Below, in pieces: positions 604 to 11,786 of a DNA stretch of 13,490 nucleotides; the stretch's first letter is position 1; every line of letters starts with the position of its first letter. The notes beneath the pieces were generated by a model, which ran no database searches, was not told the DNA's origin, and saw nothing but the letters and a program-made list of their open reading frames with translations. Source of the DNA: an uncultured Bacilli bacterium. GTDB lineage: Bacteria; Bacillota_I; Bacilli_A; RF39; UBA660. The stretch lies in assembly GCA_944333305.1 (NCBI GenBank), contig CALVKV010000031.1:1-13490 (forward strand), read 5' to 3'. Made by a program: the position numbers and the translations under genes.

Positions 604-1302
604 TTATTTTTTTACAAAAGTGGTTCCTTTAGATTCAACGTCTTTAACTTCTTCTTTAGTAGGAGATAAACCTAAACTTGCTATATTAGCTTTTATCTCT
701 CTTAAAGCAGCTAAAGATAGGCCATCAATACTATTAATATCAAAATAATGCTTATCATTCTGACTATCTTTTTCTTGTTTTATTTCAGCAATTGCTGATC
801 TATCTTTATCTTTAACATTTTCTAATATATTTTCATTTTCTAAATCTGCTTTATTTAGTACTTCTTCATTTTCAATTAAATAATTATTTTTTTCAATTTC
901 TTCTAATTTACTTAAAGTTTTTTTTGTAATAATTGCATGACCAACAGTAACTATAAAAGGTATTGACATTAAAGGAATAAATCTAACAATATCATATACT
1001 GTAGTATAATTAGAATTAGTTAATACAAAAGCACTTAAAAGGAGTGAAACTGCTGATAAATAACCTCCTTTGGAAGTTTTAGTATGTTCATCATTATATT
1101 TTCGTTTTAGTAATCTTTCGTGGGTTGCATTTATTTCCTGTTGTATTGACATCTTTCTTAATAATTCTATCTTTTCTTTTTTCGTATTAATTTTCCTATC
1201 AATTGAACCATTGGCTTTATGGACTAAAATATTATTTCCTTGCACATTAAATTTAAGTATATATGTATCACTATTTTTGTCTTCTTTTCTAATTACCTTC
1301 AT
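604..1302 (-). CDS. Two-TM protein of unknown function, paralog 1
   Basis: I do not recognise a named family. The 232-residue protein has an N-terminal basic/polar region beginning MKVIRKED, a helical charged stretch (about 40-75), two closely spaced hydrophobic segments (about 81-97 and 103-124), a Glu/Lys-rich coiled-coil-like region (about 128-182), then a tail containing IAEIKQEKD, NSIDGLS and a terminal VKK. The same N-terminal octamer core, tail motifs and C terminus occur in the adjacent 1367-2107 gene, so the two are tandem duplicates. The hairpin-like TM pair would leave both ends on the same side, probably cytoplasmic. The start is supported by GAGGGG about 8 nt upstream. The gene has its own promoter (1330-1358) and terminator (514-553), so it is monocistronic. 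Confidence 0.85.
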   Translation of the reverse strand: MKVIRKEDKNSDTYILKFNVQGNNILVHKANGSIDRKINTKKEKIELLRKMSIQQEINATHERLLKRKYNDEHTKTSKGGYLSAVSLLLSAFVLTNSNYTTVYDIVRFIPLMSIPFIVTVGHAIITKKTLSKLEEIEKNNYLIENEEVLNKADLENENILENVKDKDRSAIAEIKQEKDSQNDKHYFDINSIDGLSLAALREIKANIASLGLSPTKEEVKDVESKGTTFVKK

Positions 1303-1329
1303 AATGTTTCCCCTCTTTTCTGATTCTAT

Positions 1330-1358
1330 ATTTTACCACAAAAAAATATAAATAGCAA
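1330..1358 (-). promoter_or_regulatory. Promoter of paralog 1
   Basis: TTGCTA (1353-1358), a 17-nt spacer and TAAAAT (1330-1335) preceded by TGG form an extended -10 promoter on the minus strand. It closely matches the promoter of the paralog upstream (TTGTTA, 17 nt, TAGTAT), with shared TTTTGTGRTA before the -10, so promoter and gene were duplicated together. Confidence 0.7.
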
Positions 1359-1366
1359 TAAAAATT

Positions 1367-2107
1367 TTATTTTTTTACATAAGATTTGCCTTTAGACTCA
1401 GTATTACCTTTAACTTCCTCATCAGTACTAACTAAACCTAGATAGTCATCTCTTTTTACATTATCTATTATCTTTGCTAAAGTATCAAAAGATAGGCCAT
1501 CAATACTATTATTATCTAAATATGGTTTTTCATTCTCTTTATCTTTTTCTTGTTTTATTTCTGCAATTACTGCTTTGTCTTTACTTTTAACTCTTTCTAA
1601 AGTATTAGCATCATCTAAATCTACGTCTTTAAATATATCTTCATTTTCAAAAAACAAAGCATATTTTTTTATATCATTTATTTTACTATTTATTACTTTA
1701 TTAACAATAGTAGCAGAAGTATATGCTAAAGCTATAGTAATAATAGACCATTGTAAAATAATTGGAAGTGAACCTGTACCAAGAGAAATACATATAGAAA
1801 AAAATGTCCCCACCCCCAAAAGAGCATTAAAGAGCCCTTTATTAGTTTGCAATTTTGTTAAATACTCCCTATTACTTTTAAATTGCTGATATCTTAATTC
1901 TAATAGTCTTACCTTATTTTCTTCTACATTAGTATACCTAGGCTTAGAACCATCAGCCATATAAACTACTAAATTATCATAGTCTTCTGTAGTTATCTCA
2001 ACAGCAGAAGCATTTTTTCTAGTATTTTTTTGAATAGTTCCTTTTTCTACATCAAATTTTATTATATATTTAGAGCTCTTCCTATCTTCTTTTCTAATTA
2101 CTTTCAT
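1367..2107 (-). CDS. Two-TM protein of unknown function, paralog 2
   Basis: A 246-residue homolog of the 604-1302 product. It starts MKVIRKEDR, has two hydrophobic segments (about 92-112 and 114-135) and a charged helical region after them. It carries the shared tail: AVIAEIKQEKD near 179-189, NSIDGLS near 200-206, and a C terminus ending in ESKG followed by YVKK. Compared with paralog 1 it has about 20 extra residues in the N-terminal soluble part (about 22-50), while both share a (V/M)xxADGS/ANGS-like turn. AGAGGAAGAG just upstream of the ATG supports the start. It is transcribed from its own promoter directly behind the rpmF terminator. No function can be assigned; a membrane hairpin with cytoplasmic ends is the likeliest topology. 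Confidence 0.85.
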   Translation of the reverse strand: MKVIRKEDRKSSKYIIKFDVEKGTIQKNTRKNASAVEITTEDYDNLVVYMADGSKPRYTNVEENKVRLLELRYQQFKSNREYLTKLQTNKGLFNALLGVGTFFSICISLGTGSLPIILQWSIITIALAYTSATIVNKVINSKINDIKKYALFFENEDIFKDVDLDDANTLERVKSKDKAVIAEIKQEKDKENEKPYLDNNSIDGLSFDTLAKIIDNVKRDDYLGLVSTDEEVKGNTESKGKSYVKK

Positions 2108-2132
2108 AACTCTTCCTCTTTTCTGTTTCTAT

Positions 2133-2161
2133 ATACTATCACAAAAGAAGAAAAATAACAA
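2133..2161 (-). promoter_or_regulatory. Promoter of paralog 2
   Basis: TTGTTA (2156-2161), a 17-nt spacer and TAGTAT (2133-2138) with an extended TGA form a good promoter on the minus strand. The -35 begins immediately after the T-tract of the rpmF terminator (2163-2187). Confidence 0.7.
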
Positions 2162-2162
2162 C

Positions 2163-2187
2163 AAAAAAAGACTTTATTAAGCCTCTT
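2163..2187 (-). terminator. Terminator overlapping the 3' end of rpmF
   Basis: On the minus strand AAGAGGCTT pairs with AAGTCTTTT around an AATA loop (9 bp including two G-U pairs) and runs into a 7-T tract (2163-2169). The rpmF stop codon lies in the loop, so the last codons form the 5' arm. It ends the HD-DUF177-rpmF operon. Confidence 0.65.
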
Positions 2188-2392
2188 CTTTCTTTGTCAT
2201 ATCTACAACTGTTTTACCTTTATAACTACCACATTTAGGGCAAACACGATGTGCTTTAATCATTTCACCACAGTTTGGACATTTAATCATTCCTGGTACG
2301 TCAATTGCATTATGACTTCTACGCATTCTTTTTCTTGTTTTAGATACCTTTCTAAAAGGAACGGCAAACATTTGAATATCTAACTTTAACAT
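2177..2392 (-). CDS. rpmF: Ribosomal protein L32 with N-terminal leader
   Basis: bL32 of the large ribosomal subunit, 71 residues. The typical core [18 protein letters not shown] is at 10-27, followed by a zinc ribbon with CPNC (38-41) and CPKC (51-54), so this is the zinc-binding form. Unusually it begins MLKLDIQMF before the normal mature N terminus (AVP). This matches the leader of Bacillota L27 (MLKLNLQFF before A), which the protease Prp removes. The first ATG is the real start: AAGGAG lies 7 nt upstream of it, whereas the internal ATG (codon 8) has no ribosome site. The gene follows DUF177 by 4 nt, the usual yceD-rpmF arrangement. Identity is certain; leader cleavage is inferred. Confidence 0.97.
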
Positions 2393-2396
2393 TATA

Positions 2397-2864
2397 TCAC
2401 TCCTTCTCTATTTCGTTTAATAAATCTTTAAATGGATTATTAGTATTAGTATCTTTTACATCATCTTCACTAATAACTCTCCAACCATCCCCAGTTAAAT
2501 CTTTATAATCAGTAACTTCGCTATAGCGAATAGGGATCTCTAGTACTATATTTTCCCATAAAATGCTAATAATATCAAGACTAAATTTATCTTTTTCTAA
2601 TTTTTCACTCACATTTTCATTAATTTTGAAAGAAAATTTATAATCTACAGGTTCTAAACTAACAGAATCATTTAATTTCATAATGCCAGAACAATCAGCT
2701 TCTAGAAATAAATTATCATCGCTAGGATATGTTAAATTACCAATAACTTTAACTTCCTGCAAATCTATTATATCGGTATTAGCATAATCTTCTTTAGGAA
2801 TAGTAAACTCTTCATCTATAGATATATTATTAACTTTACTATCTAACAAATCTTTTATATTCAT
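2397..2864 (-). CDS. yceD: DUF177/YceD-family protein (rRNA accumulation-type)
   Basis: A 155-residue protein of the YceD/DUF177 family, which is encoded upstream of rpmF in most bacteria and is linked to 23S rRNA accumulation and ribosome assembly. Family features include a central beta-rich part with one Cys ([10 protein letters not shown]), an acidic region with the [18 protein letters not shown] stretch corresponding to the conserved D...E.LLL.LP pattern, and an NPFKDLL C terminus. I start it at the ATG at 2864, because GGTGA (2870-2874) lies 5 nt upstream. The ATG at 2876 lies 12 nt further upstream and has a weaker ribosome site. The TGA in that ribosome site is also the stop of the HD gene, so the two are tightly coupled. 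The family call rests on context plus pattern. Confidence 0.85.
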
Positions 2865-2869
2865 ATACT

Positions 2870-3370
2870 TCACCATCTCTTGAAAAATACCATGAATAAT
2901 AAAATAACCATGCTACAAGCGACAGACATATTTTCCTTTAGAACATAACTTCTTTCATAGAAGCAAGCAAAATCATCTACTAATGTAACTATCCAACTTT
3001 CTAAATATTTTGGTATAGTCTTACCAACAGGAAACATATGTGCCTTAATAATATCTTGCTCTAAGTCATTTAAATCAAAATACTTTAAAGAATTTTCTAA
3101 AGCTATTTTAGGATGATTTACTAGCATATGAGCTTTTTTCTCATCATAATCATCTAAAAAGAAATCATGTAAAATTGCTCCTTTTGTAGTAGAAACATAA
3201 TTTAAATGACAAAACTTAGTTATTCTATATGAATAATAAGCAACGCGCATCATATGACTATATCTATCCATGCCATGATGAACACAGTCTTTTGTTTTTT
3301 GGTATTCGCTATTGCTTACAATTGGCATTATTATATTGTTAAACTCCTCATTTGGATAAAATGTTCTCAT
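2870..3370 (-). CDS. HD-domain metal-dependent phosphohydrolase family protein
   Basis: A 166-residue HD-superfamily protein. Metal and catalytic positions are visible in order: HHGMDRYSHMMR (His 39), LHD (68-69), NHP (His 86), KAHMFP (His 111) and LVDDF (Asp 132). The set is complete, so it is likely active, but the substrate is unknown. The C terminus carries a short hydrophobic stretch (about 147-163, ending FFKRW) that may tether it to the membrane. The ATG at 3370 is the conservative start. A TTG at 3382, just after GTGGTG, would add four residues, and neither has an ideal ribosome site. It is the first gene of an operon with yceD and rpmF, behind the promoter at 3416-3444. A link to ribosome or nucleotide metabolism is only suggested by that position. 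Confidence 0.85.
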   Translation of the reverse strand: MRTFYPNEEFNNIIMPIVSNSEYQKTKDCVHHGMDRYSHMMRVAYYSYRITKFCHLNYVSTTKGAILHDFFLDDYDEKKAHMLVNHPKIALENSLKYFDLNDLEQDIIKAHMFPVGKTIPKYLESWIVTLVDDFACFYERSYVLKENMSVACSMVILLFMVFFKRW

Positions 3371-3415
3371 ATTTATATTCAAACACCACTTTCTTTTTTT
3401 AACTAGCCATTTATA

Positions 3416-3444
3416 ATTTTAGCATAAATAGTTATTTTTTTCAA
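3416..3444 (-). promoter_or_regulatory. Promoter of HD-yceD-rpmF operon
   Basis: TTGAAA (3439-3444), a 17-nt spacer and TAAAAT (3416-3421) with an extended TGC form a strong consensus-like minus-strand promoter. It lies in the gap after the permease gene. I see no clear terminator before it, so read-through from the upstream operon is possible. Confidence 0.75.
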
Positions 3445-3464
3445 CTTGACACTATATTTTTACA

Positions 3465-4526
3465 CTAACTTAACTCTGCCTTTACTTTTTTTACACCTTT
3501 TTTAATATCTGATTTAAAGAATCTATAACTTGCTGATATTAAGATATATGTAGGTAAAGCAATGATAATTCCAAGTGGTCCACCTACAGTTCCACCAATA
3601 GATACCATCATAATAGTAATTAGTGGGTTTACATTATTTGTCTTACCATATACTCTAGGAGAAATTATATAGCCATCTAATTGTGGGAAGATTAAACAGA
3701 TAATTAAAGTGGCAATAAATAAATTAGGGCTTATAACAGACGCGGTTAATAAAGCTAGTAGATTGGTAATTAAACCTCCAAAATAAGGAATTACAGTAGT
3801 AAGAGATGCTAAAACGCCAAATAAGAACCAGTTAGGATGTCCTACTATTAAAAAGACGATAGAATATTCAAAGAACTGAATGATCATAAAGGTCAAAAGG
3901 CCTCTTAAATAATTACTAAGTTCTGTATCTAAAGCTTTAACATAGCGGAAATATTTATATTTTACTTGTTTTAGAAAATTAGCAACTACTTCTCTTATTT
4001 TATCCATATAAGCTAGAAAATAAATAGACACAACAAACGTAATTATAACTTTACCTAAGAAAGAAGCAGTCTTACCTACTATATCAATAGATCCATCTCT
4101 TAAAAAAGTCCCTAAGCTATCAATAATACTTTCTAAGTAACCATTACTGCTATCAGTTATAAAATCCAAATTTATATTAAATTTATCACCGACATCTTCT
4201 ATAACTTTACCAAAATTAGTAGCAAAGGTTACAAGTTGATTATATAAAAGCGGAAGAGTTATAACTAATAAAGCTATTATGATAGTAGTTACTGCTATTA
4301 CAACTATTGTAACAGCTAAAGGTTTTCTAACTCCTTTAGAAACTAACTTTCTAACTACAGGGTTAAGAGCATAGGAAATAGCAAAAGCAATAAGGAACGG
4401 CATACAAATGCTAATAACAGATGAAAAAATACTGAACCAGGTTCCTATATTAGTAACTATAATATATAAAAGTCCCATAAGAATTAAAAAATTTAATAAT
4501 TTATAATTTATTCTATTCTTGTACAT
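3465..4526 (-). CDS. AI-2E family (PerM/YtvI-like) membrane permease
   Basis: A 353-residue polytopic membrane protein of the AI-2E transporter superfamily. Hydrophobic segments occupy about 10-60 and 65-95. A soluble amphipathic region follows (about 95-155), then a TM near 160-175 (FVVSIYFLAYMDK) and the typical C-terminal block: PYFGGLITN, FPQLDGYIISPRVYGK, NPLITIMMVSIGGTVGGPLG and IALP. Family members include proposed autoinducer-2 exporters and Na+/H+ antiporters; most, including this one, cannot be assigned a substrate from sequence. It is the last gene of the comN-secDF-rel-dtd operon. GGAGAG within the end of dtd serves as ribosome site, and its ATG is 2 nt past the dtd stop. Confidence 0.92.
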   Translation of the reverse strand: MYKNRINYKLLNFLILMGLLYIIVTNIGTWFSIFSSVISICMPFLIAFAISYALNPVVRKLVSKGVRKPLAVTIVVIAVTTIIIALLVITLPLLYNQLVTFATNFGKVIEDVGDKFNINLDFITDSSNGYLESIIDSLGTFLRDGSIDIVGKTASFLGKVIITFVVSIYFLAYMDKIREVVANFLKQVKYKYFRYVKALDTELSNYLRGLLTFMIIQFFEYSIVFLIVGHPNWFLFGVLASLTTVIPYFGGLITNLLALLTASVISPNLFIATLIICLIFPQLDGYIISPRVYGKTNNVNPLITIMMVSIGGTVGGPLGIIIALPTYILISASYRFFKSDIKKGVKKVKAELS

Positions 4527-4528
4527 AA

Positions 4529-4963
4529 TTATCTCTCCAACATAATTGTAGTAGGCCCCATATTAGTTAGGGATATTTCCATGTCCTCTCCAAAAGCACC
4601 ACCAAAGCAAGGAACATATTCGCTTAAACATTTATTAAAATACTCATATAAGAGTTTAGCTTTATCACCTTTCATCGCTTTAATATAGCTAGGCCTATTA
4701 CCTTTAGTAGTATCAGCATAAAGAGTAAATTGAGAAATTGATAAAATAGAACCTTTAGTATCTAAAATAGATAAGTTCATTACTCCATCTTTATCTGGAA
4801 AAATTCTTAAGTTAATTACTTTATTGACCATTTTAAGAATAGTGTCTTTATTATCACTATCGGTAAAACCAACTAAAATTATTAAGCCATTATCTATTTC
4901 ATTTATATTTTTATTATTAACAACGCATTTTGCATGACTACATCTTTGAACTAAAACTCTCAC
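4529..4963 (-). CDS. dtd: D-aminoacyl-tRNA deacylase
   Basis: DTD removes D-amino acids (and glycine from tRNA-Ala) mischarged on tRNA, acting in the cytosol as a homodimer. The 144-residue length is normal. The conserved SQFTLYAD (about 77-84), KGNRPS and the C-terminal NMGP motif with the Gly-cisPro pair are present. The residues after it are TT where VT is usual, a mild change. It starts with GTG: GTG at 4961-4963 overlaps the rel stop TGA by 4 nt (GTGA), and GAGAGG lies just upstream. This tight coupling to rel is the same pairing seen in Bacillus. Identity is firm. Confidence 0.96.
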   Translation of the reverse strand: MRVLVQRCSHAKCVVNNKNINEIDNGLIILVGFTDSDNKDTILKMVNKVINLRIFPDKDGVMNLSILDTKGSILSISQFTLYADTTKGNRPSYIKAMKGDKAKLLYEYFNKCLSEYVPCFGGAFGEDMEISLTNMGPTTIMLER

Positions 4964-7113
4964 ATTATCAACCTCTCTACACTTGTAATATATGGTAAAT
5001 TCTTTAAATCTAGTAGTAATTTTGTTAAGTGATTTATATCATTAACAGCAACTTCCATCTCATATGTTGCATATTCATCTCTAGATATTGTTTTAATGCT
5101 AGTAATATTAACAGAGATCTTACTAGTCGCTTGGATAATATCAGCAAGTTTATTATCTAGGGTATTAGTTCTGATTAATAAATCACTATAATACTTATTA
5201 GAAGGCTTATCATCCCAAGATACTTTAATACATCTATCATCCATACTAGCAAGGTTATGGCAATTACTTCTATGGATGGTTATACCATTACCTCTTGTAA
5301 TATAGCCAACAATATCATCACCATGAACAGGTTTGCAACATGAGGCTATACTTACTTTTATTTTGTCTATTCCATCAACTATTATGTCAGAAGCATTATC
5401 ATTTATTTTGACAATATTTTTTAATAACTTAGGTTTTTCTTCTTCTTTTTCACCGAAGTTTATATTTATGACATTATTAGGTGTATGTTTATTACTACCT
5501 ATATCATAATATAAATCGTCTAAGTTATCTATTTTTAGAATTTTATAGACGTTTTTAAGATTATCCTCAAGATAAAAATCACTAATTGCTATCTTTCTTT
5601 TTCTTAATTCTTTTTCTAAATATTCTTTACCACGTTCTATTAGGACTTCTTTCTCGCTCTTACTAAAGTAACTTTTTATCTTATTACGAGCCCCAGTAGT
5701 TTTAACTATATTTAACCACTCTTTAGAAGGATGAGCACTTTTATTAGTATTAATTTTAATAATATCATTACTTTTTAATTCATAGTCTAAAGGTACGATA
5801 CTACCATTTACAATCGCTCCTACTGTTGTCTCCCCTACTTTACTGTGAACTTTATAAGCAAAGTCAAGCGGTGTGGCACCACGAGGTAGTTCAATAACAT
5901 CTCCTTTAGGGGTAAAAACATAGATATTATTATTTAAGACTTCATCTTTTACAGAAGTAACAAACTCTTCACTACTCATCTTATCATTTTCAAGTTCCAT
6001 AATTTCTTTAAAAAACTGAAGCTTTTGGGTAGTGGTAGATTGTAAGTTAGCGGTTCTCTTACTACCACCATTTTCTTTATAGGCCCAGTGAGATGCAATA
6101 CCATTTTCTGCTACTTCATCCATTTCATAAGTTCTAATTTGAATTTCAAATAAATAGCCATCTATTCCAAAAACAGTTGTATGTAATGACTGATACATAT
6201 TTGGTTTAGGCATAGCGATATAGTCTTTAAATCTTTTAGGTAAAGGTCTAAACTTAGAATGAATTAGACCAAGAACTAAGTAACAATCTTGTTCTGTATC
6301 AACCAAAATACGTAGTGCTAATAGATCATAAATATCACTGAATTTTTTACCTTTATCAAGTTTATTATAAATACTATAGATACTTTTAGCACGGCCTTTA
6401 ATTTGATGAGGGATGTGATGTTCATTTAGTAGTTCTGTAACTTCTTCTTGCATCTCATAAACTGTTGTGTCACGTTCTGCTTTAGTCTTATTAAGTTTAT
6501 CGGCAATATCATAAAAAACAGTTGGTTTTAAATAACGAAGAGATAAATCTTCAAGCTCACTTTTAATTTTATGTATTCCTAAGTGATGAGCAAGTGGTGC
6601 AAATATCTCAAGAACTTCTTTAGACTTTTTCTTTTGTTTTTCAACGGGAGTTGCCCATAAAGTTCTCATATTATGTAAGCGATCTGCAAGTTTTACAATA
6701 ATAACTCTAACATCTTCACTCATTCCTACTATTATTTTTTTATAATACTCTACTAAATATTCATTATCTGTAGAAAAATGAAGTCTACCTAATTTAGTAA
6801 CACCATCTACTAATTTGTAGACAGTAAGCCCAAACTTCTCTTTAAATTCTTCTATATCAACATCACAATCTTCTATTACATCATGAAGTAAAGCTGCTAC
6901 TAAGCATTCACTATCTGCATAAATTGAAGTAAGAATTAAAGCAACATTAAGGGGATGAATAATGTATTCCTCCCCACTTTTGCGATACTGTCCTTTATGC
7001 TTTTCTTTTGCATAATAATAAGCATCTAATATTTTTTCTCTTTCTTTAGGGTCTTTGATATATTCATCTATTTTTTCCATTAAATCATCTATGGTAATTA
7101 AATCCTTTTTCAT
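4960..7113 (-). CDS. rel: Bifunctional (p)ppGpp synthetase/hydrolase Rel
   Basis: Long RSH enzyme of 717 residues that makes and degrades (p)ppGpp, the stringent-response alarmone. The N-terminal HD hydrolase is intact (His 53, HDVIED at 77-82, KLADRLHNMR at 141-150). The synthetase domain has RFKD (294-297, the form seen in bifunctional enzymes rather than the EXDD of RelA), PNMYQSLH, and EIQIRT with the catalytic Glu 323. A TGS domain spans about 396-456. A Cys-rich zinc/RIS region contains CC at 592-593, His 614 and Cys 618, and an ACT domain fills about 645-717. Both activities are therefore predicted. GAGGGG upstream supports the start. It follows secDF by 28 nt. In B. subtilis recJ and apt usually lie between; both are absent here. 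Confidence 0.98.
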   Translation of the reverse strand: MKKDLITIDDLMEKIDEYIKDPKEREKILDAYYYAKEKHKGQYRKSGEEYIIHPLNVALILTSIYADSECLVAALLHDVIEDCDVDIEEFKEKFGLTVYKLVDGVTKLGRLHFSTDNEYLVEYYKKIIVGMSEDVRVIIVKLADRLHNMRTLWATPVEKQKKKSKEVLEIFAPLAHHLGIHKIKSELEDLSLRYLKPTVFYDIADKLNKTKAERDTTVYEMQEEVTELLNEHHIPHQIKGRAKSIYSIYNKLDKGKKFSDIYDLLALRILVDTEQDCYLVLGLIHSKFRPLPKRFKDYIAMPKPNMYQSLHTTVFGIDGYLFEIQIRTYEMDEVAENGIASHWAYKENGGSKRTANLQSTTTQKLQFFKEIMELENDKMSSEEFVTSVKDEVLNNNIYVFTPKGDVIELPRGATPLDFAYKVHSKVGETTVGAIVNGSIVPLDYELKSNDIIKINTNKSAHPSKEWLNIVKTTGARNKIKSYFSKSEKEVLIERGKEYLEKELRKRKIAISDFYLEDNLKNVYKILKIDNLDDLYYDIGSNKHTPNNVININFGEKEEEKPKLLKNIVKINDNASDIIVDGIDKIKVSIASCCKPVHGDDIVGYITRGNGITIHRSNCHNLASMDDRCIKVSWDDKPSNKYYSDLLIRTNTLDNKLADIIQATSKISVNITSIKTISRDEYATYEMEVAVNDINHLTKLLLDLKNLPYITSVERLIM

Positions 7114-7141: not shown

Positions 7142-9430
7142 TTAATCATTTATACCTTTAATAGTCTTTTCACTCACTTCTTTAACTACTTTTTTCTTTT
7201 TATTATGTTTTCTTTTTTTACTTGCAAAGAAAACATATAAACTTCCTGCTAGTAGTAATGATGAATAAGTACCAGCGATTAGGCCTACTATCATGGCAAC
7301 ATTAAAGGTTAATATTTCTCTACTACCCATTATTAGTAAGGCTAGTACTGGAAGAAGTGTTGTTAGAGATGTATAAATACTTCTAGACATTGTATCTTTA
7401 ATACTAACATTAACTACTTCTTTAAGTTCATCTTTACTTAGATTATCTTTATCTTTCTTTCTTAAATTCTCACGGACTCTATCAAAGACAACGATTGTAT
7501 TATTAATTGAATAACCTATGATAGCAAGTACTGCTGCTATAAACATTGAATTTACTTCTACTCTTAAAAGAATAACAGAAGCTACCATCATAAGAGCATC
7601 ATGTACTAGACAAATAACTGATGAAATACCATAACTGAATTTGAATCTAAAGGTAATATATAAAATTATACCAATCAAAGAGATAACGATAGAGAATATA
7701 GCATTTTTAATTAGATCTTGTTTAACAACGTTAGAGACAACACCAATATCAACACTAGTATTATATTTTTCAAGGAAATAACTTTCTACCTCATCAACTT
7801 CGTTTTCTTTTAATTCATCACTTACTCTAATATCAGTTTCACTACTAGTAATATCAATGCTTACTTCATCTAAGTCTAACTCTTTTAAATCACTTTTTAA
7901 ATCTTTTAGAGATATTTCCGTAGTAGCAAGAGTAATATCGCTACCTGCCCTAAAATCAATACCAAGATTCATTCCTTTAAAAGCAAACATAACGACTGAT
8001 GCAAGTATAACAATTAGACTGAAGGCTGCAAAGAATTTACTAAGTCCTAAATAATTATAAGTCTTCTTTTTCTCATCTTGTTTAATATTTTCTTCGTGAA
8101 CACCAATAAAGAGATTTAATTTATTATCAAAATATTTAGTTTTAACAAACATTTTCATTAATATTCTAGTAATACCTACCATTGTAATCATTGTTACAAT
8201 AATATTAATGATAAGCATAGTAGCAAAACCTTTAACACTAGATTCTCCTAAATAGAACATTATAATGGCAACTAGTAATGTTGTAAGGTTAGCATCAAGG
8301 ATCGTTCCAAAGCTTGCTTTACTACCATTTTTGAAAGCTGTTTCTAAACTTCTTCCTTTAAGTAGTTCTTCTTTAATACGAGAATATGTTAAGACGTTAG
8401 CATCAACAGCCATACCAATACCAAGTATTAAAGCAGCTATTCCAGGAAGAGTTAAGACTCCACCTACTAGCCAAAAGGCCGCAAAGACAAATAAGGTATA
8501 TAAAAGTATCGATACTGCTGAAATGATACCAGCAAAATTATAAATACCTATTAAAAGAATTATAATAGCAAGAACACCAGCAATTCCTGCATACATTGTC
8601 ATAGTAAGAGTTGCGTCTCCAAAACTAGCTCCTACTGTTTTACTAGATACTTCTGTTAGTTTAGCAGGTAAGCTTCCAGAGTTAATTAAATCAACTAAAT
8701 TACTGGCTTCCTCTTCACTAAAGCTACCTTGAATAATAACATCGCTAGCAAAGCCTTCACTAACAGTAGCAGCACTTATACAATTACTCTCGTCTGTTCC
8801 ACACATACTTCCTTCACTAGCATAAGAATCTGTCATTTCGTTGTAATCTAGCCAGATAACAATAACATTATTTTCGTAATCTTTAACAGCATTAGTTACT
8901 TTATAGAATGTATCTTTATCTTTAACAGCAAGACTAACAGCAGGTCTACCACTTGAATCTGTTGTAAGTCTAGCACCACCTGCGTCTAAGACATCACTAG
9001 TCATTAATAAATTATCTTCACTATCTCTAAATGTTAAAGTAGCAACCGTAGATAGGGTATCTCGTGCTTCTTCTTTATTAGTAACACCTGCTAGTTTTAC
9101 TCTGATTCTATTATCACCTTCTAGAGTAATTTCTGGCTCACTGACACCTAAAGTATCAATACGTTTAAGCATACTCCTGTAAGTAGCGTTTAATATATCA
9201 CTATTCATTTCACTACCATCAATAGGACTAACTTCATAAAGTATTTCAAAGCCTCCTTGTAAGTCTAGTCCAAAGTTTAATGATTTAAATAATGGCACTA
9301 TTAAGAAGCAAACAATAGCAGCAATTACTACTAAGATAGCTGTTTTGCCTAACATTTTCTTCTTTTCAGGAACCATCTTTTTTCTTTCTTTTTTTATCTT
9401 TTTTTCTTTAACTTTCTTTTCTTTCTTCAT
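7142..9430 (-). CDS. secDF: Fused protein-export protein SecDF
   Basis: A 762-residue SecD-SecF fusion that uses the proton gradient to complete translocation through SecYEG. A very Lys-rich cytosolic N terminus precedes TM1 (about 28-48). The SecD signature FGLDLQGGFEILYEV is at 53-67, and the extracytoplasmic P1 domain contains a Cys pair (210 and 217). The TM4 motif GMAVDANVLTYSRIKEE (Asp 343) is intact. The SecF half starts near 465 with MNLGIDFRAGSDI (487-499) and ends in a basic tail. In the SecF TM motif the sequence is GYSINNTIVVFDRVRE: residue 644 is Asn where Asp is usual (SINDT). GGAGGTG upstream supports the start. It probably helps export the surface protein encoded next door, which is inference. 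Confidence 0.97.
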   Translation of the reverse strand: MKKEKKVKEKKIKKERKKMVPEKKKMLGKTAILVVIAAIVCFLIVPLFKSLNFGLDLQGGFEILYEVSPIDGSEMNSDILNATYRSMLKRIDTLGVSEPEITLEGDNRIRVKLAGVTNKEEARDTLSTVATLTFRDSEDNLLMTSDVLDAGGARLTTDSSGRPAVSLAVKDKDTFYKVTNAVKDYENNVIVIWLDYNEMTDSYASEGSMCGTDESNCISAATVSEGFASDVIIQGSFSEEEASNLVDLINSGSLPAKLTEVSSKTVGASFGDATLTMTMYAGIAGVLAIIILLIGIYNFAGIISAVSILLYTLFVFAAFWLVGGVLTLPGIAALILGIGMAVDANVLTYSRIKEELLKGRSLETAFKNGSKASFGTILDANLTTLLVAIIMFYLGESSVKGFATMLIINIIVTMITMVGITRILMKMFVKTKYFDNKLNLFIGVHEENIKQDEKKKTYNYLGLSKFFAAFSLIVILASVVMFAFKGMNLGIDFRAGSDITLATTEISLKDLKSDLKELDLDEVSIDITSSETDIRVSDELKENEVDEVESYFLEKYNTSVDIGVVSNVVKQDLIKNAIFSIVISLIGIILYITFRFKFSYGISSVICLVHDALMMVASVILLRVEVNSMFIAAVLAIIGYSINNTIVVFDRVRENLRKKDKDNLSKDELKEVVNVSIKDTMSRSIYTSLTTLLPVLALLIMGSREILTFNVAMIVGLIAGTYSSLLLAGSLYVFFASKKRKHNKKKKVVKEVSEKTIKGIND

Positions 9431-9469: not shown

Positions 9470-9739
9470 TTATATTATTTCTAGGTTCTCTTTTCTAGTA
9501 GAAAGACTATCTTTAAGATATTTATCTAATAGTTTATTATCACAATTTAAGATATCACTAACTATATCACTTAATTCCAAATTATGAGCTTTAGACCATT
9601 TAGTAAGAATTAAATAATTCCAGACATCATTTTTATGAATATAACGGTATCCAAGTCTATCAAGTTCACTTTTTTTAGCATCAAGTGCTGGTTCGATCAT
9701 TTGATACAACTCCTCTTTGCTATTAAAAGTAAAATCCAT
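9470..9739 (-). CDS. ComN-like post-transcriptional regulator
   Basis: A small 89-residue protein matching the ComN (YrzD)/post-transcriptional regulator family in pattern: an N-terminal LYQMIEPALDAKKSELDRLGY helix, then DVWNYLILTKWSKAH, then a C-terminal helix LSDIVSDILNCDNKLLDKYL. In B. subtilis ComN acts on the 5' UTR of comE mRNA and its gene is next to secDF, exactly as here, so position and sequence agree. It has no membrane segment. The start is the ATG at 9739. AGGAAAGG lies rather far upstream, and GTGAT is closer. It is the first gene of the operon from the promoter near 9774. What RNA it controls here is unknown. Confidence 0.82.
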   Translation of the reverse strand: MDFTFNSKEELYQMIEPALDAKKSELDRLGYRYIHKNDVWNYLILTKWSKAHNLELSDIVSDILNCDNKLLDKYLKDSLSTRKENLEII

Positions 9740-9849: not shown

Positions 9850-11703
9850 TTATTGTAATTCTATCGTAAATGGGTCTTGTTTTGTTCCGGTTCCTCCAGT
9901 TATAACGACGTTAGATTTTAGATTTACTAATGGGCGGACACCGTTCGCGTTGGTCGGAGTGCTGTAGCCCGTGTCGCCGTCGTAGTAGACGTAACGCACG
10001 TTGGCCGCACTATATGGGGTCAATGTCCAATAAGATGTTGTTAAACCTGTACTAGAACTTCCTCCTTTAACTGTATATCTTTCAAATTGCCCTGACATCA
10101 ATTCTCCCATTCGTAGTAATCCTACTTTAGCATTTGTTGTTGAACTAGTTAGACCACTCATATTAGTATCTGTATATTTTGCCAATCTGTAATTTGCACC
10201 ACTACCTACAGTTCCTAAATACCAAGTTGTACTATCTTCTATCATATTACTATATGTATTTCCTACATAATCTGTTAGATATGTCCTATTTAAGAATGTT
10301 CCCATTGTTGTTGTACTAGAATACAAATAATTTCCTAATGCACTTGTTATGAAACTTCCTCCACTCTTTAATGGTTCTGCACTAGTTATTTTTGTTAAAC
10401 CACTAGTCTCATGACTTACTATTCTATATAAAGTATTTTCTCCTGTTCCAAAAGTTATATATTCACCACTATATCTTGTATTTAACATAGTTCCTGATAA
10501 ATCAGTATCATTATCTCCTTCTAAGCGATATGGGTTATCTATTGTTCCATTACCATTTACGATTTTGACGCTAGATTTTAGATTTATAGATGGGCGGACA
10601 CCGCGCGCGCTGGTCGGATCGTTGCTGCGCGCGCTGCCGGTGCGGTGGACAACACGCACGTAGGACGTACTATATGGTGTTAATGTCCAAAAGTAAAGCC
10701 CATTATTTAAATATCCATTACTATAAGTTGTTCCATGATAACTAGACTGATACTCATACATATTTAACAACCCTACCGAAGCCGTTACAGTTGTTGTTCC
10801 ATTTGGTCTTTGTATACTTCCTAAACTAGTTGCATCTAATGTCGCATCCCATGTCGCATCTGTTACAATGAACTTCTCATAATCTCTTAAATTTCCTAAG
10901 AATCCATCTACAGAAGTATCATTTAACCACATTTCCATATGACTATCTTCAAAAGCTGTATTTCTACTTGCATTATATGGAATAGCACTTATATCCCACT
11001 GAGTAACTAATTTAGTTGTCTTTGCCTCATTATTAACAGATACCGCTCTCCATAACTTTCCACTATACCAGATGTAATTATTAGGGTCAGTTCCTGTTAT
11101 AAAGGTATCTGTTCCATCATCATACGTGTCTCCATTAGGTCCTTGATCCGATAAAACAAAATCTACTACTGTATCTTTTGGAGCTTCTTCAAATAAATGT
11201 CCATTACTAGGTAGACTTAAATCATTATAATCAAGTCCTACCCCGACTCCTAAATTTATTGTTACACTACTATTAGAATTATTTGATATTCTTATTGTAT
11301 AAGTATTACTAGAACCACTAGCACCACTTGTTTCTAAGTTTATTCCTACTGCTGCTGGAGGAATATTTAATCCTTCATCTGCAACATACCCTACTGTTAC
11401 ATCACTAGGTAGACTTCCTTCATAATAGAAATTAAATCTTGCAACTCTATTATTTGGATTACTTAAAGTTACACTAAACTCTTCTGTTGTATTTGCTGGT
11501 ACAGATAAAACATTACTTTCTTCCCCATCTACTTGTAAATTATATTCTAAGTTACCTGTTACAATACTTACGGCATTACTCTTCTCTTTTGATACTGTAA
11601 ACATAGCATAAGAAAAGTATCCTCCTAATATTAATAAAGAAATTAATATTACGCCTAGCATATATATCTTACTAAAACTTGTTTCTAAAAATAGTTTTTT
11701 CAT
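9850..11703 (-). CDS. Surface-anchored DGR-type target protein with two variable modules
   Basis: A 617-residue exported protein. A signal anchor/TM (about 12-34: YMLGVILISLLILGGYFSYAMF) is followed by a beta-rich Ser/Asn-rich domain (about 36-170) whose YFSYAMF...GNLEYNL pattern recalls camelysin/TasA-like folds. Then come two homologous modules (about 210-382 and 414-604). Each contains a (I/Y)W-YSGKLWR or TLYRIVS strand, a VGLL(N/R)M segment, WTLTPYS, a variable stretch, GVRP, NLKS and a GTxxxP(Y/F) end. The layout resembles DUF6273/C-type-lectin-like domains targeted by DGRs. Each variable stretch is a VR candidate (342-371 and 562-591). I start at 11703 because AGGAG lies about 9 nt upstream; an in-frame ATG at 11757 lacks one. 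Monocistronic, with promoter and terminator. DGR targeting is inferred from substitution pattern; ligand unknown. Confidence 0.88.
   Translation of the reverse strand: MKKLFLETSFSKIYMLGVILISLLILGGYFSYAMFTVSKEKSNAVSIVTGNLEYNLQVDGEESNVLSVPANTTEEFSVTLSNPNNRVARFNFYYEGSLPSDVTVGYVADEGLNIPPAAVGINLETSGASGSSNTYTIRISNNSNSSVTINLGVGVGLDYNDLSLPSNGHLFEEAPKDTVVDFVLSDQGPNGDTYDDGTDTFITGTDPNNYIWYSGKLWRAVSVNNEAKTTKLVTQWDISAIPYNASRNTAFEDSHMEMWLNDTSVDGFLGNLRDYEKFIVTDATWDATLDATSLGSIQRPNGTTTVTASVGLLNMYEYQSSYHGTTYSNGYLNNGLYFWTLTPYSTSYVRVVHRTGSARSNDPTSARGVRPSINLKSSVKIVNGNGTIDNPYRLEGDNDTDLSGTMLNTRYSGEYITFGTGENTLYRIVSHETSGLTKITSAEPLKSGGSFITSALGNYLYSSTTTMGTFLNRTYLTDYVGNTYSNMIEDSTTWYLGTVGSGANYRLAKYTDTNMSGLTSSTTNAKVGLLRMGELMSGQFERYTVKGGSSSTGLTTSYWTLTPYSAANVRYVYYDGDTGYSTPTNANGVRPLVNLKSNVVITGGTGTKQDPFTIELQ
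9931..10017 (-). repeat. Candidate DGR variable region, C-terminal copy
   Basis: A GC-rich patch (about 65% over 9931-10010) inside an AT-rich gene, aligning without gaps to 10591-10677 (offset exactly 660). Between 9944 and 10008 the two differ at 23 positions: 13 first, 9 second and 1 third codon position. Adenine appears on the coding strand in one copy at 17 of these, and in neither at 6. All fit A-to-N change from a template rich in AAC codons. It ends in GGTGTCCGCCCA (9931-9942), a GC-rich invariant stretch that would suit the initiation-of-mutagenic-homing site. It lies 26 codons from the stop, the usual VR location. Confidence 0.8.
10591..10677 (-). repeat. Candidate DGR variable region, internal copy
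   Basis: Second copy of the variable patch, at the end of the first module, about 71% GC over 10591-10670. It shares all non-variable positions and the invariant GGTGTCCGCCCA end with the copy at 9931-10017, yet encodes a different residue at nearly every variable codon. Homology extends about 20 bp beyond either side (roughly 10567-10690) and then falls off abruptly at nucleotide level. Confidence 0.78.
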
Positions 11704-11786
11704 TAGATTCACTCCTATTAATTTAGCATATACTTTTTTATAGAAATCATACACCATGTATAATTACCTATATCTTACTTATTTTG

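Follow-up and report, generated by a model that had tools for sequence, protein, structure and literature searches.

Two variable regions of probable diversity-generating-retroelement origin in one two-module DUF6273 protein of a small-genome Bacilli bacterium

The window (i.e., the whole 13.5-kb stretch of DNA that was analysed) contains a minus-strand gene (9850..11757), hereafter the target gene, encoding a 635-aa protein with an N-terminal segment that, judged from sequence, resembles a membrane anchor, followed by a beta-rich domain and two DUF6273 modules; a Pfam scan of this protein matched DUF6273 over two stretches. Module 1 (10519..11172, minus strand; aa 196–413) is a predicted C-type-lectin-like domain, and module 2 (9853..10512, minus strand) represents the second DUF6273 stretch. 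Each module includes a GC-rich patch with a 78-nt core on the same strand, referred to here as the first and second variable regions, VR1 (10594..10671) and VR2 (9934..10011). The target gene adjoins an ORF of 89 aa (9470..9739), which lies next to secDF (7142..9430), both on the minus strand. No template repeat (TR) flank motif and no reverse transcriptase (RT) were found in the window by motif and ORF inspection. Elsewhere in the window, two tandem paralogous ORFs (604–1302 and 1367–2107, encoding 232 and 246 aa), which share 74% DNA identity over 257 nt, presented no Pfam match at E 0.001.

Set 660 bp apart, the two patches give an ungapped alignment over a 124-bp block with 77% identity. 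Across the whole block there are 29 differences, including 23 within the core, which is exactly the number that a sequence-only reading of the window had given for these near-identical patches; that reading had also placed 22 of the 23 at first or second codon positions and had noted an A in one copy at 17 of them, and both numbers were reproduced from the list of differences. The cores have GC contents of 0.68 and 0.61, as compared to 0.35 in the gene as a whole and 0.28 across the window, and have in common the fixed words GTGCGT, CCGACC, and GGTGTCCGC. The codons after the VRs (9907–9933 and 10567–10593 in the window) were AATCTAAAATCT in 36 of 43 TR-like VRs vs 14 of 37 decayed VRs, a comparison that is confounded by relatedness; AATCTAAAATCT, considered here as a candidate IMH-like sequence at the VR end, is possibly a required target-site sequence.

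When modelled alone, module 1 yielded a C-type-lectin-like prediction with a pLDDT of 96.9, in which the VR sits within the predicted fold, and each patch would thus probably form the tip that varies on such a predicted domain, as suggested by this structure model of module 1. The model of the full-length target was poor (pLDDT 48.9), including over the modules, and a fold search with it gave no match at E 0.001. A module profile compared to PDB sequences presented no match, and an NCBIfam scan of target proteins gave no usable match.

The nearest genome, G001, shares the order of this locus (target, 89-aa ORF, secDF, relA, and dtd), and three flanking genes are 95.8–95.9% identical to those of the window at the DNA level (95.9% for the 89-aa ORF and 95.8% for secDF). 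Despite these near-identical flanks, the syntenic target gene in G001 is a different member of the family, with amino acid identities of 67% in the N-terminal domain, 33% in VR1, and 19% in VR2, and with GC contents of 0.35 and 0.38 in its VRs. One relative, P0001, is 99–100% identical to the window gene from VR1 through VR2 and 89% identical in the N-terminal domain and the body of module 1, a jump in identity that we consider a sign of exchange between copies. For seven further near relatives (P0002 to P0008, including two near duplicates), identity in the VRs was 37–59%, vs 71–95% in the module bodies. Two named homologs belong to Candidatus Onthousia.

The search for TR, RT, and Avd covered 35 genomes of the same genus other than the window's own. 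A template-like query built from both patches, with A placed at the variable positions, matched 27 of the 60 relatives when TRs and VRs are counted together, and an A-rich pattern matched four of the 60; the first pattern tried in G001 matched only two VRs of one gene. The cassette found at matched loci is non-coding, has an AAC-rich core and near-invariant flanks, and is located 3′ of a target gene. At locus L062, a target gene (4556–6487) is followed by the TR core (6591–6660), a 74-aa ORF, a 113-aa Avd-like ORF, and an RT gene (7581–8534); TR and RT occur together in L060, L061, L062, L065, and L067. The best PDB match of the RT was 8ub7 (E 2.7e-20), which we take to be the enzyme of the BPP-1 diversity-generating retroelement (DGR) and which ranked above group II maturases, and the same-genus TR-adjacent RT contains the motif LPIGNYTSQ, presumably a mark of DGR RTs. 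The 113-aa ORF of L062, the one locus of this RT type that was checked, matched PHROG 3206 (Avd protein of DGR) at E 1.7e-5; the assignment is a weak one, as Pfam bAvd reached only E 0.081, below the cut-off. The neighbours that the sequence-only reading had predicted for a template were thus identified in same-genus genomes, with a DGR-type RT beside TRs and an Avd-like ORF in L062.

Seven TRs of 80–81 nt, designated class I, align with the window patches, which were assigned to this class; a second TR class is 84 nt long. The predicted template, with A at the variable positions and with all fixed words kept, was recovered in part: the seven class-I TRs carry A at most of these positions and GTGCGT is kept in six of them, while the other fixed words occur only as variants. 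The cassette query matched at least 27 of the 35 genomes, some through VRs only (22 candidates were scored in most genomes), and the 3′ TR flank was found with at most one mismatch in 22 of 35, matches with two mismatches being ignored as no commoner than the control would allow. Related RTs were present in 31 of 35 genomes at E 1e-10, and RT relatives with at least 73% identity, several of them fragments, in 20 of 35; G001 is not among these 20. The TR of G001 (contig C8, L076 5187–5400) adjoins a target and belongs to the other class; the close RT type was found neither beside this TR nor in the G001 assembly (94% complete), and TR scans around two G001 RTs identified none for this target class. 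The conserved template of G001 either is an orphan or has lost its RT in an assembly gap. RNA folding of the TR flanks placed stems around the TR; as two-sided change was present in only three of 59 pairs, covariation support for these stems was dropped.

Differences between the window patches fall at 16 of the 21 sites that are always A in the seven class-I TRs, at five of 13 mixed sites, and at two of 44 sites that are never A. This enrichment is not due to codon position, since it persists at positions 1 and 2 alone (16 of 21 always-A vs 1 of 19 never-A sites), nor is the pattern attributable to chance, given that the 23 differences between the patches, when placed on the consensus class-I TR, involve 19 of 25 A sites vs 4 of 53 others (Fisher 1.5e-9). 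At least one of the seven TRs has A at 21 of the 23 differences; the two located at never-A sites include one third codon position. At eight further sites, both patches agree with each other and depart from the consensus TR, a pattern that fits one donor TR for both, as if a single template not in hand had written the two patches. The adenine-specific mutagenesis proposed from the sequence is therefore supported by templates from congeners, even at codon positions 1 and 2 only.

VRs were also compared to the TRs beside them. Eighteen TR cassettes were read (two shortened and one decayed), upstream of which 13 genes presented two recognisable VRs, three presented one, and two presented none (contig ends). 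In nine of the 13 two-patch genes, both VRs depart from the adjacent TR mainly at A (Fisher <0.001 each); the exceptions were L069, L227, and L259, with weak bias, and the G001 locus, where VR1 is not TR-like. Overall, the A bias beside a TR was weak or absent in L069, L227, L256, L259, and L260. When the VRs upstream of TRs were pooled, except for two gap-rich L259 rows, change was found at 340 of 686 A, 49 of 530 C, 33 of 470 G, and 67 of 428 T. Individual cases include the two TR-adjacent VRs of G003 (18/29 A and 1/51 other sites changed; 11/29 A and 0/51 other), G019 (16/27 A and 0/57 other; 14/27 A and 1/57 other), and G015 (13/26 A and 0/58 other; 10/26 A and 1/58 other). The VRs of L065, the template of which lies outside the 18, differ from it at 14/26 A and 8/55 other sites and at 13/26 A and 6/55 other sites.

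The differences at A sites, the congener loci with TR, Avd-like, and RT genes, the nine of 13 two-patch genes, and the lectin-like module 1 together give us high confidence that both patches originate from a DGR. In such a system, reverse transcription of the template RNA would introduce errors at A, and the resulting cDNA would replace either patch, so that one protein would be diversified at two tips. To a fuller reading, in which a DGR wrote the two lectin tips while the gene was beside a TR and the gene was later moved or exchanged into its present locus, where it would now be a parked, two-tipped variant of a large dispersed family, we give a probability of roughly 0.6; a gene would likewise appear parked if its TR had fallen into an assembly gap. 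The main competitor, a possible but doubtful one, is that the gene remains in use as a remote target, both patches still being written in trans by a class-I TR and RT located at another place in the genome of the window.

The distribution of the target family bears on this choice. G001 presented 19 matches to the target protein, and ten further genomes presented between 2 and 29, counts that include N-terminal-only relatives and pieces at contig ends; genomes with the family measure 0.9–1.7 Mb, with one or two intact TRs seen in each and two VRs per target. From every one of the 19 G001 loci and from selected loci of other genomes, we extracted 151 VR-like stretches, including the window's two, by a protein pattern that decayed patches can escape. 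Judging by its surroundings, the window gene belongs to the remote paralogs. Twelve of 19 comparable TR-adjacent VRs (10 of them with their own genome's TR) vs three of 102 remote VRs (one with its own) differ by no more than four non-A mismatches from at least one of 16 TRs, a contrast that is blurred by some "remote" loci that adjoin an interrupted or decayed TR (L213 on G013 C48 and L234 on G019 C24) or that are cut off by the end of a contig, beyond which a TR could lie (e.g., L228). Similarly, the own-genome TR was the best match for 12 of 15 adjacent vs only six of 36 remote VRs (with 15 TRs, excluding the G009 C1 template, and with the G001 TR-adjacent VR counted as remote). Both comparisons argue against writing in trans, and the first, along with the different gene at the syntenic G001 locus, favours parking.

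Evidence in the direction of writing in trans comes from remote pairs that have no adjacent TR found and can look as fresh as adjacent ones. Such pairs differ at few never-A sites, as in G001 L002 (11/21 always-A, 1/44 never-A), G009 L141 (13/21, 1/44), G010 L201 (13/21, 1/44), and G019 L235 (10/21, 1/44), the corresponding values for the window being those given above (16/21, 2/44). More generally, 12 of 34 class-I-length VR1/VR2 pairs, including the window's and several without a TR found beside them, have two or fewer never-A differences. Some remote VRs also fit the TR of their own genome about as well as adjacent VRs do, with non-A mismatches of 5/56 for G001 L001 and of 5/53 and 8/53 for G019 L235. 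The remote G001 pair L002 is close to the TR of another species, G019 (1/53 and 3/53 non-A), and the window VRs each have 10 non-A mismatches to the best known TR. The number of non-A mismatches correlates with lower VR GC content (rho −0.69, n = 127), which may reflect old patches drifting toward the AT bias of the host or, alternatively, plain paralog age. On balance, we favour writing beside a TR followed by gene exchange over writing in trans.

An origin without any retroelement, through ordinary diversifying selection and gene conversion between modules and paralogs, appears highly improbable. Paralogs do seem to swap pieces, as in P0001, and near relatives carry different genes at this locus; selection on amino acids, however, does not account for the concentration of differences at always-A sites within codon positions 1 and 2 or for the way in which VRs next to a non-coding TR and an RT depart from that TR mainly at A. 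Least probable of all is the import of GC-rich patches by phage or plasmid DNA, with their similarity due to plain recent duplication: excerpts of two reports (PMC10743442, PMC11792537) do describe DUF6273 DGR targets in gut phages, but some of the genes around the target in the window are housekeeping genes in synteny with G001, a recent duplication would not place differences at A sites, a scan of viral contigs gave 12 RT relatives with only 28–37% identity, and L062-like loci point toward a target family with its own TR in prophage-free chromosomes.

The DGR of Bordetella phage BPP-1 comprises Mtd, bRT, and Avd. The system described here resembles it in having a TR, a DGR-type RT, an Avd-like protein, A-specific change, and a VR that ends a C-type-lectin-like domain, and differs in representing a chromosomal, genus-wide family with many dispersed paralogs and two VRs 660 bp apart in one ORF. 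Gut phage DGR targets with a VR in DUF6273 include the tentaclins and those of Faecalibacterium prophages, where the VR lies at the DUF6273 C-terminus, according to excerpts of these reports (PMC10743442, PMC11792537); they likewise have a C-type-lectin-like model. As presented there, those targets are phage genes, two separate genes in tentaclin phages, whereas the bacterial protein described here combines two modules and has an N-terminus that resembles an anchor. More than one VR per ORF has already been published: MarpuDRAFT_1558 has three tandem FGE paralogs in one ORF, possibly an artefact according to its authors (excerpt of PMC3521204), and VRs within the same ORF were found in 31 of 271 multi-VR DGRs (excerpt of PMC6642488). 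Unlike those cases, which come from surveys, a single architecture is here preserved genus-wide and amplified. Many targets per chromosome, up to eight, are described for Treponema denticola and Stenotrophomonas (excerpt of PMC10743442); compared to that description, the genomes here are small, with few intact TRs, two VRs per target, and as many as 29 matches to the target family, a count that takes in fragments and N-terminal-only relatives. DGRs, multi-target DGRs, and several VRs per ORF are thus in print; a two-module bacterial family that spans a genus and combines few templates with many dispersed copies was not found in the excerpted DGR literature or, by title, in literature on DUF6273, Onthousia, or Mollicutes.

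The consensus class-I template has 14 variable codons and allows no stop, for a theoretical repertoire of ~5.5e14 peptides from one patch and 3e29 from both. A pattern first spotted by eye has thereby become a checkable DGR family in small-genome Bacilli, and it raises the testable question of whether the DGR rewrites continually or writes once and archives, as in cassette-based antigenic variation. We suggest, tentatively and at somewhat less than even odds, that a single DGR locus writes a lectin with two variable tips and that copies spread by exchange, around the chromosome and between species, to build a library of as many as about two dozen such variants, with a transposon of three recombinases within the template silencing the writer in some lineages.

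Several other elements were observed. At L070 6510–9907 (G022 C20), the DGR template is interrupted by a 3.4-kb element that we take to be RIT-like; it carries three tyrosine recombinases in tandem and has inverted ends of ~80 bp, as judged by eye. The same element was also identified in G035 C8, G032 C6, G016 C4, G013 C48, and G012 C36/C82; an element end was found in seven of the 35 genomes, with 11 ends in total, and all nine readable flanks represent the template at the same spot, the other two being contig ends in G024. In L248 (4146–7120; G035 C8), a further set of three recombinase-like ORFs separates the interrupted template from the Avd-like and RT genes that belong to the same DGR. 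Another DGR, with good Avd and RT, is located in L025 (~1300–4600; G001 C20), preceded by several cassettes that are non-coding, AAC-rich, and similar to templates or VRs; the proteins of L016 and L017 have C-termini that appear alike by eye. In L071 (1057–2272; G006 C54), the RT belongs to a third subclass and has an AAC-rich template directly downstream.
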